Assembly (NCBI GenBank): GCA_030649025.1
Contig: JAUSGO010000003.1
Span: 1-55,972, forward strand
Reading direction: 5' to 3'
DNA: 55,972 bases
DNA from: a bacterium
GTDB lineage: Bacteria > Patescibacteriota > Minisyncoccia > JAUYLV01
In this document: positions 12,006-44,690 of the stretch, in pieces
How the letters are laid out: each line of letters begins with the position of its first letter
How positions within the stretch are numbered: position 1 is the first letter of the stretch
Notes under the pieces: model-generated
Database searches by the model: none
What the model was told of the DNA's origin: nothing
What the model saw: only the letters and a program-made list of their open reading frames with translations
Translations under genes and position numbers: made by a program

Positions 12006-13925
12006 ATGTCAAAAATACTTGGAATTGATTTAGGAACAACGAACTCCGCCATGGCAATCGTGGAGGGCGGAAAGCCGCGCATTATTGAGAACAAAGAGGG
12101 GAACCGCACAACCCCGTCCATCGTCGCCGTGTCGAAATCCAACGAACGCCCGGTGGGGCTTTTGGCTAAGCGCCAGGCGGTCACCAATCCAAAAAATACC
12201 GTTTACTCCATCAAACGTCTCATCGGGAGGCGCGCTGCAGACGCGGAAGTGGAGCGTGACAAAAAATGGCTTCCGTATGAGATGAGGGGAGCGTCAAACG
12301 GCGGTATTGAGGTAAAATTCGGCGAGGAATGGAAAACCCCGCAGGAGATTTCCGCAATGATACTGCAAAAGCTGAAATCAGACGCGGAAGACCGGCTTGG
12401 AGAGAAAATAACCGAAGCGGTCATCACCGTGCCTGCATATTTCGATGATGCGCAGAGGCAAGCCACAAAAGACGCCGGAGCCATCGCGGGTTTCAACGTG
12501 CGCCGCATTATTAATGAACCAACGGCCGCCGCTTTGGCGTACGGCCTGGATAAAAAGAAAGAAGAGAAAATAGTGGTATACGACTTCGGCGGCGGGACTT
12601 TTGACGTATCGGTGCTTGAAATTGGCGATGATACCATTGAAGTAAAATCCACCGGGGGCGATACGCACCTTGGGGGAGACGATTTGGACCAGCGCATCAT
12701 TGCGTACTTGGTTGATGAATTCAAAAAGGAGCAGGGGATAGATCTCGCGCGTGACCAGCTTGCCGTACAGCGCCTGAAGGAAAGCGCTGAGCGCGCAAAG
12801 CACGAGCTTTCCACGTCCATAGAGACGGAAGTGAATATCCCGTTCATTACGTCGGACGCTTCGGGGCCCAAGCACTTCATTCACAAAATGACGCGCTCCA
12901 AGCTTGAGTCGCTAGTACAGGATTTTATTGACCGCTCCATTGAGCTTACGGGTGAGACCGTAAAAGAAGCCGGGTTTGAGATGTCGCAGATAAACGAAGT
13001 TATTCTTGTCGGCGGACAAACAAGGATGCCTGCGATTCAAGAGGCAGTGAAAAAGCTTTTCGGCAAAGAACCGCACAAAGACGTGAACCCCGACGAAGTG
13101 GTCGCTATCGGCGCGGCTATTCAGGGAGGCATTTTGCAGGGCGACGTGAAGGATGTACTGCTTTTGGATGTAACCCCTTTGTCGCTTGGCATTGAAACAC
13201 TTGGCGGTGTGATGACGAGACTCGTGGAGAAAAACACCACGGTTCCCACCGCAAAGACGCAGGTATTTTCTACCGCGGCCGACAGCCAACCCTCGGTAGA
13301 AATCCATGTACTGCAAGGAGAACGCCCTATGGCAGGAGACAACAAGACGCTGGCGCGGTTCATTCTGGACGGCATTATTCCCGCTCCGCGCGGCATTCCG
13401 CAGGTTGAGGTAGCATTCGATATTGATGCAAATGGGATTCTTAATGTGAAAGCGAAAGACAAGGCGACCAACAAAGAACAATCGGTGCGGATCGAAGCTT
13501 CAAGCGGCCTTTCCAAAGAGGAAATAGAGAAAATGCGCAAGGATGCCGAACTGCATGCGGCCGAGGACGAAAAAAAGAAAGACCTTATAGAAAAAAGAAA
13601 TCTTGCCGAGCAGATAACCTACACGGCAGAGAAAGCGTTGAAGGACGCGGGCGACAAAGTTACGGCAGATGAGAAAAAGCCCGTTGAGGAAAAAATAGAG
13701 GCGTTGAAGAAAGCAAAAGAAGGCGACAGCGTGGATGCAATAAAGAAAGCTACGGAAGAGCTTTCCACGGCTATACAGGCAATAGGGTCAAAACTGTATC
13801 AACAAGGAGACACTCCGAAGAACGATGACCATAACCATGACAATGACAAAAAGAAAGAGGATGACAATGAAAAAGGACCGGAGGGCAAGAATCCCGAAGA
13901 TACAAAGTTCGAGGACGTGAAATAA
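12006..13925 (+). CDS. dnaK: Chaperone DnaK (Hsp70)
   Basis: 639 residues with a normal ATPase domain ([11 protein letters not shown]-type start, [53 protein letters not shown]) and substrate-binding domain ([16 protein letters not shown]). The tail is rich in Asn, Asp, His and Lys. It follows grpE across a 184-nt gap that holds two repeats instead of a promoter I can recognise, so it may be read through from the hrcA promoter. Confidence 0.98.
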
Positions 13926-13942
13926 AGTTCTGTAAATAAAAA

Positions 13943-13974
13943 ACCCCCGTACCATTTTGGTTCGGGGTGTTTTT
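13943..13974 (+). terminator. dnaK terminator
   Basis: CCCCG...CGGGG with inner ACC/GGT pairing, followed by TGTTTTT. Confidence 0.8.
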
Positions 13975-13983
13975 GGTGCGGGT

Positions 13984-14355
13984 TTACTCCGTCTGCGGTA
14001 ACCCGATGATGGACCTCACGAACGATTGGCCTTGTAGGAGTTCCCGCAACTTCCATCCCTCGACCAGATGCACTATGCGCGGCGGGGAATGGAAGGTTAC
14101 ATCGACGTAGCCAAGGTAGTGATAAAAATTTCCTTCAAAATAGTAGTAATCGCGTTTACCGCTTGCGGATTGAAACGGCATCTGCAACATTACTTGGCGC
14201 TGACCCGGCTTCGCATCGCTGACAGCTACATCTGCGGCCGTGAAACGATCCGTGTTGAAATCAATGAACGCCGCGATAAGTGCTGCCTGTTCTTGGACGA
14301 TGCCGTATATCTGGCTATCTAGCGCAAGAAACTGCTGTAAAACCTCTGTACTCAT
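13984..14355 (-). CDS. Unknown 123-residue protein
   Basis: A mixed alpha/beta soluble-looking protein with an N-terminal helical stretch (VLQQFLALDSQIYGIVQEQAALIAAFI) and a Tyr/Phe-rich middle (KRDYYYFEGNFYHYLGYVDVTF). It has GGAGGG 6 nt before the ATG. It is the last gene of a three-gene minus-strand cassette between dnaK and dnaJ. I recognise no family. Confidence 0.7.
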   Translation of the reverse strand: MSTEVLQQFLALDSQIYGIVQEQAALIAAFIDFNTDRFTAADVAVSDAKPGQRQVMLQMPFQSASGKRDYYYFEGNFYHYLGYVDVTFHSPPRIVHLVEGWKLRELLQGQSFVRSIIGLPQTE

Positions 14356-14376
14356 GAATGCCCTCCTTCGCTTACT

Positions 14377-14685
14377 TCAGATTGGCTCCACGCTGACCAG
14401 GACCGATTCGGTGCAGCTATCCTGTCCGAGCGGGATGGTCACTGAAGCGCCTGTTCCAAGAACGTTGTAGGTCTTGGCTAGTTCCTTGAGACCCGCCTTC
14501 TCATCGTCGGAGGATAGGCATTTGCCCACGCTCTTGTTCGCGCGGAGCATGACAACTTGGTTCGGGATGACTGTTTCGACGACATAGGGCTTTGACGCAT
14601 TGATTTTCGCGTCCACAACAAAGAACACGGCCAGCACAACAACCACAAAGGCCATGATGAAAATATCCGATAGAGTCATTTTCAA
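14377..14685 (-). CDS. Single-pass membrane protein, pilin-like N-terminus
   Basis: 102 residues from a TTG start (the in-frame ATG at 14679 is the alternative). A hydrophobic helix (DIFIMAFVVVVLAVFFVVDA) is followed by an extracytoplasmic domain of about 75 residues with two cysteines (KCLSS and DSCTE). It carries the leader AAAAGGAGGAACGTACC immediately before the start, identical to the one in front of the 31-residue gene upstream. It may be a minor pilin or envelope component; the family is unknown. Confidence 0.68.
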   Translation of the reverse strand: MKMTLSDIFIMAFVVVVLAVFFVVDAKINASKPYVVETVIPNQVVMLRANKSVGKCLSSDDEKAGLKELAKTYNVLGTGASVTIPLGQDSCTESVLVSVEPI

Positions 14686-14759
14686 GGTACGTTCCTCCTT
14701 TTATTGTTTCAAACTCACATTGACCATTACCGCTCCAGCACAGCTTCCACGGCCAACAC

Positions 14760-14855
14760 TTACAGATACAGAACAGCAATCGCGCCGATGATTAGAATGA
14801 CAGCCACTGTGGTGAGCACCTCAAAAAATATGTATCCGGACTGTTTGAATTTCAA
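14760..14855 (-). CDS. 31-residue prepilin-like peptide
   Basis: A TTG start 6 nt after GGAGGAACGTACC. The product has a short basic leader (LKFKQSG), then YIFFEVLTTVA and a hydrophobic stretch, ending at TAA. The Gly before the hydrophobic run and Glu at position +5 match the type IV prepilin cleavage and assembly motif. There is no globular head. It is either a mini-pilin, a membrane peptide or the remains of a longer pilin gene. The shared leader with the next gene supports translation. Confidence 0.6.
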   Translation of the reverse strand: MKFKQSGYIFFEVLTTVAVILIIGAIAVLYL

Positions 14856-14909
14856 GGTACGTTCCTCCTTTTTATGATGTATTTCCTGAGAAATTTTCCT
14901 AAGTTTCTA

Positions 14910-14938
14910 ATGTTACCATTAAAGCAAGTATCTGTCAA
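14910..14938 (-). promoter_or_regulatory. Promoter of the three-gene cassette, -35 at a mobile-element junction
   Basis: On the minus strand, TTGACA - 17 nt - TAACAT. The TTGACA is made of the TCAA duplication beside element B1 plus two more flanking bases, right next to the element's GGGGG end. Confidence 0.6.
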
Positions 14939-15069
14939 CCCCCACACTAATAGTAGGCACTTAGTGAATACACACGCATATCAAAAGTTTTGTTTTTGAG
15001 AAAATTTTTCTTTTGCCACAGATACTATTTGCGGCGCTCTGCGCCGTCAGCCCACTATTAGTGTGGGGG
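14939..15069. mobile_element. Palindromic element B1
   Basis: 131 bp with perfect 16-bp inverted ends CCCCCACACTAATAGT/ACTATTAGTGTGGGGG and 4-bp direct flanks TCAA (14935-14938, 15070-15073). A GGCGC-tct-GCGCC hairpin lies just inside the right end. The gap of 263 bases between the 31-residue gene and the next gene is mostly this element. Confidence 0.85.
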
Positions 15070-15118: not shown

Positions 15119-16060
15119 ATGAGCCCCACCATCAAAAAACTTATTCTCGGATTTTTTCTTGTTTCGCTCGGCGTGCTTTTTTGGCTGTTCATTAAAAACC
15201 TGTTTTTCCAGGATTCCGCAAATATCGCTGAACGCTTTTGGTCGTTCAATAATATCGGCCTATTCGTGTCTCTGGTCACGCTCTATGCGACGGTCTTAGG
15301 ACTTGTTGCTTTTTTAATTAATGAGCGGGCTTGGGCGCATGGGATGCTGTTTGCAGGAATTTTGCCGTATTTTCTTACTGCCTCGGGGCGTCCCCTTGAG
15401 CTGGTTGGCGCTTTTGCAATCCTCTGGGCCTCGCTTTTCGTTTCGCGCGAATGGATAATGAAGGAGAATGCGAATCGCATCTCGCTGGGTATAGAAAAAT
15501 CGGTTCCGAAGAACATGTCGTTCGTGCTTACCGCGCTTGCTCTTGCGGTTTCCACGGTATTTTACGTTTCTCCCGCCGTAGAGCAGCTTAAGGACATCCG
15601 TATTCCGAGAGCTTTCTTTCAAAGGATTGTTTCTCCCTTCGAGACCATGTTCGAGCGGCAGGTTGAATTTAGGGCTCAAAGCTTTACGGGGACGCTTGAG
15701 GATGCAGTACCGGTCGGAGTTGTGGAGCAAGTTAAACCGGAAGAAGCGGAGATATTGCAACGACTATCGAGACCCTTCACGGAACCGCCAAGCGCAAACA
15801 GCGTATATTCGGAGTTTACCGATGCGCTCTTCAATGCTCTTAATGGGCAGATTGCGCGGATAGATTCGCTGTCTCCGAATGTTCAACACGTGGTTTCGGT
15901 TTCCTTTTCCTTGGCGCTATTTGCGATAATTCGCCTGTTGCTGATACCGGCAAGCTGGATTATCATTATTCTTCTGGTCGTCATATTCAATGTGCTGGTG
16001 TATACGGGGTTCGTGAAGATCGGGACGGTGCAGGTGGAGAAGGAGACCATTGAATTATGA
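15119..16060 (+). CDS. Multi-pass membrane protein, unknown
   Basis: 313 residues. Four or five hydrophobic segments in the first 160 residues (LILGFFLVSLGVLFWLFI, FVSLVTLYATVLGLVAFLI, GMLFAGILPYFLTA, LTALALAVSTVFYVSP), a roughly 120-residue extracytoplasmic region, and two segments at the end (VVSVSFSLALFAIIRLLL, WIIIILLVVIFNVLVYTGFV). No family is recognised. A TATACT box at 15101-15106 lies 12 nt upstream. It lies between dnaK and dnaJ, but no role in folding can be inferred. Confidence 0.8.
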   Translation: MSPTIKKLILGFFLVSLGVLFWLFIKNLFFQDSANIAERFWSFNNIGLFVSLVTLYATVLGLVAFLINERAWAHGMLFAGILPYFLTASGRPLELVGAFAILWASLFVSREWIMKENANRISLGIEKSVPKNMSFVLTALALAVSTVFYVSPAVEQLKDIRIPRAFFQRIVSPFETMFERQVEFRAQSFTGTLEDAVPVGVVEQVKPEEAEILQRLSRPFTEPPSANSVYSEFTDALFNALNGQIARIDSLSPNVQHVVSVSFSLALFAIIRLLLIPASWIIIILLVVIFNVLVYTGFVKIGTVQVEKETIEL

Positions 16061-16294: not shown

Positions 16295-17380
16295 ATGGCC
16301 GGAAAAGATTATTACAACATTCTCGGAGTTTCCAAAGACGCGTCCGATGACGATATAAAAAAGGCGTATCGGCGTCTCGCGCACCAGCATCATCCCGATA
16401 AAACCGGAGGAAATGAGAAAAAATTTAAAGAGATCAATGAGGCGTATCAGGTGCTTTCGGACGGCCAGAAACGCGCTCAATACGACCAATTCGGCACAGC
16501 CTTCCAGGGAGGAGGAGCTCAAGGCGGGTTTGATTTTTCAGACTTTATGAATGGCGCAGGAGGAGGTGGCGTGGACCTGGGCAGTATTTTTGGCGATATG
16601 TTCGGCGGGGGTTTTTCATCACGCACGCGCCGAGACCGCCGGCAAGGAGAGCGCGGGCATGATATCGCCATTGACGTGGAAATTACCCTTTCGGATGCGT
16701 TTACCGGAGCGGAGCGAACATTCGAATTGAAACGCATGTCTCGCTGTGCGCACTGTACCGGCACGGGAGCCGAACCCGGAACGCCTATCAAGACATGCGC
16801 GACTTGTAGCGGATCGGGATATGTACGGGAAACACGGCAGATATTTTTTGGAAGTTTTGCGACCGAATCGGTCTGTCCCCATTGTAAAGGAGAGGGGAAA
16901 GTCCCCGAAAAGGCATGCAAAGATTGCCACGGGCAGGGAAGGATACCGCTTATAAAGCCGGTAACGTTGCATGTTCCTGCCGGTATACGCGATGGCGAGG
17001 TCATCAAATTGGAAAGCGAGGGGGAGTCGGGGCTTTACGGCAGGCACAGCGGGGATCTCTACGCAACGATTCATGTAAGGGCACATGAACATTTCAGGCG
17101 TCAGGAAGATGATATCCACTACACACTGCGTATTCCGCTTGTGGAAGCGGTGCTGGGAGAAGACACAAAGATAGTTCCGACCATTGATGGAAAAACGAAA
17201 ATACGGATACCGTCAGGCATAGATTCCGGAACCGTGCTGAAACTACGCGAGAAGGGGATGCCAAGGCTCCGCGCACGCGGGAGAGGCGACATGCTCATTA
17301 AGGTTGAAGTTGAAACGCCCAAACGCCTTTCACGGCGCGCAAAGGAACTCCTGGAGGAGTTGCGAAAAGAATTGAAATAA
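16295..17380 (+). CDS. dnaJ: Chaperone DnaJ (Hsp40, type I)
   Basis: 361 residues with all type I parts: J domain with HPD at residues 33-35, a Gly/Phe-rich segment ([21 protein letters not shown]), four zinc repeats ([32 protein letters not shown]) and the C-terminal peptide-binding domain. It stimulates DnaK. It is separated from dnaK by the small minus-strand cassette, an element and an unrelated membrane-protein gene, and no second CIRCE box is visible before it. Confidence 0.97.
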
Positions 17381-17412: not shown

Positions 17413-17628
17413 ATGTTCTCTTATGAATTCAAGGAACGTCATCCAACGCTCTGTTATGTTTTGGCCGGTGCTCTTATTACATTTTTTGCGGGCTGGCTGT
17501 ATCTTTACGGGGTCGCATGGTTTTTTCGGGCGGTTCTCAAATTAAAGGACGCATACCTTCAACAAGACCGTGATTACATCATCCTGTTCTTCCCCGATAA
17601 GCAAAAAAGTCCCAAACCGGGAGATTGA
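17413..17628 (+). CDS. Small membrane protein, unknown
   Basis: 71 residues with one strong membrane segment (LCYVLAGALITFFAGWLYLYGVAWFF) and a polar tail rich in Lys, Gln and Asp. AAAGGAGG lies 4 nt before the ATG. It follows dnaJ by 32 nt and may be co-transcribed. No family is recognised. Confidence 0.7.
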   Translation: MFSYEFKERHPTLCYVLAGALITFFAGWLYLYGVAWFFRAVLKLKDAYLQQDRDYIILFFPDKQKSPKPGD

Positions 17629-44328: not shown

Positions 44329-44461
44329 CCCCCACACTAATTGTCTGCATGTGGATATCCCCTTAGGTTATCGCGCTGGCTTACTTTATTGGTGAATATT
44401 TCACTTTTCAATCATATTATTTACGACGCCTTGCGTCGTTACCAGACAATTAGTGTAGGGG
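44329..44461. mobile_element. Palindromic element B2
   Basis: 133 bp with ends CCCCCACACTAATTGTCTG and CAGACAATTAGTGTAGGGG, flanked by TCAA on both sides (44325-44328, 44462-44465). A GACGC-ctt-GCGTC hairpin lies inside the right end at the place where B1 has GGCGC-tct-GCGCC. Confidence 0.85.
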
Positions 44462-44531: not shown

Positions 44532-44653
44532 TCCAGCGTCGCCCCGCACTAATTTCGTCGGATAGACCATTATATTCAAAAACATTTCCACGGTAACGCC
44601 TGGCGGCTCATGACTGTGCTTTCCGAAGATTATTGCAGAAAATTAGTGCGGGG
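44532..44653. mobile_element. Palindromic element B3 (variant ends)
   Basis: 122 bp with 14-bp ends CCCCGCACTAATTT/AAATTAGTGCGGGG. The CACTAAT core is shared with B1 and B2, but the outer bases differ and no target duplication is clear. Confidence 0.7.
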
Positions 44654-44690
44654 TTTCGTTTTGTAACCCCGCCTTGGCGGGGACAAAACA

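Follow-up and report, generated by a model that had tools for sequence, protein, structure and literature searches.

The locus examined here raises the question of what is encoded by a minus-strand unit of three ORFs (31, 102 and 123 aa; p1, p2 and p3) flanked in a Patescibacterium by dnaK and by a conserved membrane gene that itself lies upstream of dnaJ, and in particular whether p1, which resembles the N-terminus of type IV prepilins, is a pilin lacking its head. The whole stretch of DNA analysed, hereafter the window, comprises 55,972 nucleotides. The unit is, most probably, a private operon that encodes small envelope proteins and in which a ribosome-binding site has been duplicated; a pilin identity of p1 is not favored. 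The features on which this reading is based are listed in Table 1.

Table 1. Features of the three-gene cassette, its neighbors and the B1 repeat family (positions in the window unless a contig is given).
Feature	Position	Strand	Description
dnaK	12006-13925	+	
Hairpin	13939..13974	both strands	Bidirectional-terminator-like; z about -3.3 each; A and T runs flank
p3	13984..14355	-	ATG start, 123 aa; predicted to be soluble, with an N-terminal helix and a meander of five strands (mean pLDDT 63)
p2	14377..14685	-	TTG start, 102 aa; predicted to cross the membrane once; Cys56 and Cys91 after helix
Leader copy 2	14702-14680	-	170 bp start-to-start from copy 1
p1	14760..14855	-	TTG start, 31 aa, MKFKQSGYIFFEVLTTVAVILIIGAIAVLYL; single-TM peptide, class-III-signal-like (SG/YIFFE)
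Leader copy 1	14872-14850	-	Shine-Dalgarno AAGGAGG, TTG start, AAA codon
Putative cassette promoter	14910..14938	-	Sigma-70-like; TTGACA - 17 nt - TAACAT, 10/12, TG before -10
Element B1	14939-15069		MITE-like repeat; TCAA target duplications 14935-14938 and 15070-15073
Gene for 313-aa membrane protein	15119-16060	+	Precedes dnaJ
dnaJ	16295-17380	+	
B1-family copies	14939-15069, 44329-44461; L059:11111-11241; L060:19170-19301; L063:3704-3843; L065:3999-4129; others		

The preliminary description of this DNA had proposed a cassette of three genes, and all three minus-strand ORFs are present and coding-like. Among the six frames, minus-strand frame 0 gave the best codon score in each of the three intervals. 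The scores of p2 and p3 exceeded those of every control segment from non-coding frames, that of p1 exceeded 99.3% of the controls, and all three fell inside the range of segments taken from the genes of the window. On synonymous codon choice alone, the three ORFs were not separable from the controls, so that the coding signal is mostly one of amino-acid composition, as expected for short genes. A promoter-like site is located approximately 55 bp upstream of p1. This call is a match to the consensus, and the same scan yielded such sites as frequently in shuffled DNA (3 found, 3.1 expected); its position and extended -10 box fit, but the site is suggestive only. At the other end of the cassette, the hairpin, whose bulged stem kept it off the list of a simple terminator scan, fits a terminator common to dnaK on the plus strand and the cassette on the minus strand.

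All of the three cassette genes are preceded by a complete AAGGAGG Shine-Dalgarno sequence (7/7) at a sensible spacing, and that of p3, AAGGAGGG, lies inside the 21-nt gap after p2. The motif is missing from most genes of the window. Across 207 kb of the genome, matches of at least 6 nt at the first start were found in only 5 of 152 long ORFs, and the number with a match of at least 7 nt was likewise 5 of 152 when any start in the first 30% of the ORF was allowed. The strong Shine-Dalgarno sites thus set the cassette apart, pointing to either foreign origin or high expression. GC content gave no sign of the former (0.49 for the cassette and 0.49 for the window). As a separate observation on this genome, the majority of its genes lack a Shine-Dalgarno sequence at the first start (26 genes of the window; 152 long ORFs in 207 kb), and a number of genes carry a -10-like box just before the start, which suggests leaderless transcripts. 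Strong AAGGAGG sites were also seen at other small ORFs of the window (17413-17628 and about 47313, both on the plus strand), one example being a 71-aa membrane protein encoded after dnaJ, and the users of the Shine-Dalgarno sequence in this genome may perhaps be orphan small genes.

The leader of p1, AAAAGGAGGAACGTACCTTGAAA, recurs before p2 with 23 of 23 nucleotides identical through the TTG start. The preliminary description had noted an identical leader of 17 nt plus TTG before two differing products, and the identity is therefore both true and longer than described. When up to three mismatches were permitted, the two copies were the only sites in the window, and none was found in 100 shuffles. 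The 16-nt core of the leader occurs at these two sites only in the 1.23-Mb genome and in none of 141 related genomes; no viral contig contains a match to a 19-nt version; and the looser pattern AAAGGAGG-N4-9-TTGAA found one additional site in the genome. The repeat does not continue into the coding parts, and no longer repeat was found. In both copies, TTG follows AGGAGG by 8 nt, which is an ordinary spacing, and we thus read the leader as a duplicated ribosome-binding module. Two other readings were rejected. Against the leader as an RNA switch, the two copies fold no better than shuffled sequences (z 0.58 and -0.83) and no Rfam match was detected; against p1 and p2 as diverged copies of a single gene, their coding parts align, by eye, at chance level.

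The cassette had been described as interrupting the chaperone region, and the comparison with related genomes bears this out. In G001, the only relative of the same family compared (DnaK 81% identical), the order grpE, dnaK, 313-aa gene and dnaJ is the same, but only 161 bp separate dnaK from the 313-aa gene, and no cassette ORFs are found there. In G016, one stretch likewise contains dnaK and dnaJ together with a relative of the 313-aa gene. The neighbors are thus ancestral, and this lineage has gained the cassette; loss in G001 is less likely, albeit one relative cannot discriminate between the two. The 313-aa membrane protein itself belongs to no Pfam family; at its place between dnaK and dnaJ, it is conserved in G001 (46%) and partly conserved in G016 (27%).

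No relative of p2 was found in 141 related genomes or in a sample of 379 genomes of the phylum, and none of p3 in a sample of 383 genomes of the class, these samples overlapping one another. Scans of GTDB contigs and viral contigs, which seed on short exact peptides and thus reach close relatives only, found neither p2 nor p3, and no phage or plasmid record contained them. The two proteins gave no meaningful score against Pfam, PHROGs, NCBIfam, PADLOC or PDB sequences, in agreement with the earlier remark that the cassette lacks recognizable families, and there was no PADLOC, PHROG or phage-genome match that would mark it as an anti-phage defence or phage gene set. Altogether, as judged from sequence comparison, the cassette is a lineage-specific orphan operon.

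The preliminary description had also placed the cassette beside element B1. The two are indeed adjacent, but the link is incidental, B1 being a separate insertion. The element has its own target duplication, which rules out the cassette as a part of it. The duplicated TCAA overlaps the -35 box TTGACA of the cassette, which stays intact. The B1 family comprises 14 paired copies in the stretches read and a more divergent one at 44541-44654; its members are about 131 bp long with inverted ends CCCCCACACTAAT / ATTAGTGTGGGGG, and most are flanked by direct repeats of approximately 4 bp (often TCAA; also TGTG, TAAA, TACA and CAAA). We counted 29 matches to B1 arms genome-wide. A paired-arm search gave 8 exact pairs for this genome, against none for G001, and the matches in four other genomes resembled AT-rich chance pairs or other elements. 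Two more copies of the family (L068:3208-3342 and the arm region on L041) end directly at TTGACA, with a TATAAT-like box 17 nt after it at both, as at the cassette; B1 elements may have a preference for promoter -35 boxes. The copy on L059 extends over the beginning of a gene for a prepilin (C31:63051-63119, minus strand).

Hydropathy and structure models assign one membrane helix each to p1 and p2 and none to p3. The p1 peptide is approximately one transmembrane helix in full. For p2, hydropathy over 19 residues reached 3.0, and the model places a helix at residues 5-31 followed by strands, with a mean pLDDT of 63 (low confidence). Searching Foldseek with these low-confidence models returned no match reaching an E value of 0.001 and none that was usable. 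We consider it probable, somewhat beyond even chances, that the cassette is a lineage-specific orphan operon of three proteins, gained beside dnaK, with its own promoter, a shared terminator and a partnership of p1 and p2 in the membrane. Under this reading, the gain would have taken place between dnaK and the conserved 313-aa membrane gene, and one short mRNA would run from the cassette promoter to the terminator common with dnaK. The strong Shine-Dalgarno sites would drive efficient translation of all three genes, and the same ribosome-binding module would match the synthesis of p1, a one-helix peptide, to that of p2, which is anchored and bears an extra domain. Both would be active jointly in the cell membrane, and p3 would be their partner in the cytoplasm; trimming of p1 after Gly7 by a prepilin peptidase is conceivable. 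The partnership of p1 and p2 is inferred from their adjacency and shared leader, and p1 in particular, known from one species, could be untranslated.

The principal alternative is that p1 is a headless prepilin, cut by PilD after Gly7 to leave a 24-residue helix (YIFFEVLTTVAVILIIGAIAVLYL, predicted) that serves as a minor or capping subunit of a type IV pilus built by other loci of the genome, with p2 as its membrane-anchored head partner in a split pilin. We regard this as unlikely, albeit the best of the rival explanations. The preliminary description had likened p1 to a prepilin N-terminus, which stands as a motif (Gly at -1, Glu at +5, then an uninterrupted hydrophobic run of 19 residues) but not as a firm family assignment. 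The Pfam N_methyl profile matched p1 over positions 2-27 of 27 with E=0.0066 and 16.4 bits, below the curated cut-off of 21.2. None of 60 shuffles of the p1 residues reproduced this match, but shuffles matched other Pfam families at E values down to 0.0073, so that the E value of p1 is weak by itself. A motif rule, composed after p1 had been seen, recovered p1 and seven genuine prepilins and none of 84,228 ORFs of randomized DNA. On the other hand, a profile built from the genome's own 12 genuine prepilins gave p1 0.6 bits, a score that did not exceed those of half of the shuffles, and the position-specific score of p1 was 4.3, whereas leave-one-out scores of the 12 prepilins were 9.2-34.3. 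By the latter score p1 ranked 7 of 70, above nearly all other N-terminal membrane helices compared, and its resemblance to prepilins, conditional on being a membrane helix, corresponds only to p about 0.01-0.03.

The machinery that a headless prepilin would need is encoded in the genome, as expected from the wide distribution of type IV pili in CPR bacteria (PMC6744442). On other contigs, we detected a prepilin peptidase PilD (L056:8023-8946, with A24_N_bact and Peptidase_A24) together with PilC proteins, three PilB-type ATPases and a shorter ATPase that is PilT-like. None of the pilus loci found in the genome adjoins the cassette, p2 and p3 gave no match to pilus components, and p2 bears a membrane helix of its own. 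The order of a short helix followed by a separate domain resembles GSU1496/GSU1497 (PMC5174107), but a mature chain of 24 residues is far below the short pilins of Geobacter. A further possibility is a minimal split-pilin module, in which a duplicated ribosome-binding module keeps the amounts of the 24-residue headless prepilin and its separate membrane-anchored partner equal, and we hold such a module to be distinctly improbable. The earlier suggestion of a miniature surface-appendage or membrane-peptide system is thus retained as regards small membrane proteins, given the helices of p1 and p2, whereas the appendage is unproven, since p1 falls below both the N_methyl cut-off and all 12 prepilins, neither p2 nor p3 has a match among pilus components, and the pilus loci found are not near the cassette.

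The lack of a head domain noted earlier for p1 is confirmed: the stop after residue 31 is followed by no alpha1-C or globular head, and none is present in the 57-bp gap. We rejected p1 as a broken full-length pilin in this sequence, as no single stop or frameshift change exposes a head. Read-through of the stop adds 10 residues (VLAVEAVLER) before a second stop, and the p2 frame, when entered from p1 by one frameshift, is closed by a TAA just upstream of leader copy 2. Prepilin matches in 55 related genomes were nearly all listed in open frames well over 100 aa, and the few short frames include contig ends, implying that headless prepilins are no usual feature of those genomes, albeit the search misses short weak cases and left p1 itself unreported.

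A further alternative regards p1 as a leader ORF, translated or untranslated, by which p2 expression is set, by way of the ribosome-binding site present in two copies. The identical leader before both genes, the 57 nt between the p1 stop and leader copy 2, and the shortness of p1 and its lack of relatives agree with this idea, but the folding results given above reveal no structure coupling p1 translation to leader copy 2, and the codon statistics of p1 are coding-like and its sequence is coherent as a membrane helix; we give this reading little credence. Type I toxins such as TisB have about 30 aa, one helix and a strong Shine-Dalgarno sequence. Sharing these properties, p1 might be a hydrophobic toxin of this small kind, or another peptide that acts on membranes, accompanied by accessory genes. 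We hold this to be very unlikely, as the strand opposite p1 carries no promoter-like site, and there was no Rfam match to an antisense or other RNA and no PADLOC or toxin-family match.

The preferred reading, a private operon of small envelope proteins, and the prepilin reading differ in what they would mean. Should p1 be translated and then cleaved by PilD, it would be a prepilin-like protein pared down to hardly more than the transmembrane half of its helix, and would test directly how much of a pilin the machinery can do without. Otherwise, the cassette would be another private operon of small proteins, here in a CPR-type bacterium. The interest would then lie mainly in three perfect Shine-Dalgarno sites in a genome largely without them, and in a ribosome-binding module copied exactly before two unrelated genes.

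Three known systems can be compared with the cassette. Like the type IV prepilins (PF07963), p1 begins with a short charged segment and has Gly at -1, Glu at +5 and a hydrophobic helix. In contrast, it totals 31 aa without alpha1-C and head, has YIFF where FTLI-like residues are usual, carries TT at +8/+9, and scores below the curated cut-off. In Geobacter sulfurreducens, the short pilin GSU1496 has no C-terminal globular domain, and GSU1497, its neighbor within the operon, has a chiefly antiparallel beta structure; fission of a full-length gene is the origin that the authors propose (PMC5174107). The cassette likewise combines a short helix gene with a following separate-domain gene in one putative operon, but mature p1 would be much shorter than the Geobacter short pilins, p2 bears its own membrane helix, and the likeness is one of gene order. 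We therefore treat the split-pilin parallel as a lead. Lineage-specific operons of small membrane proteins are similarly short, hydrophobic, compact and without homologs, and the cassette differs from them by the exact duplicate of a 23-nt ribosome-binding module before unrelated genes.
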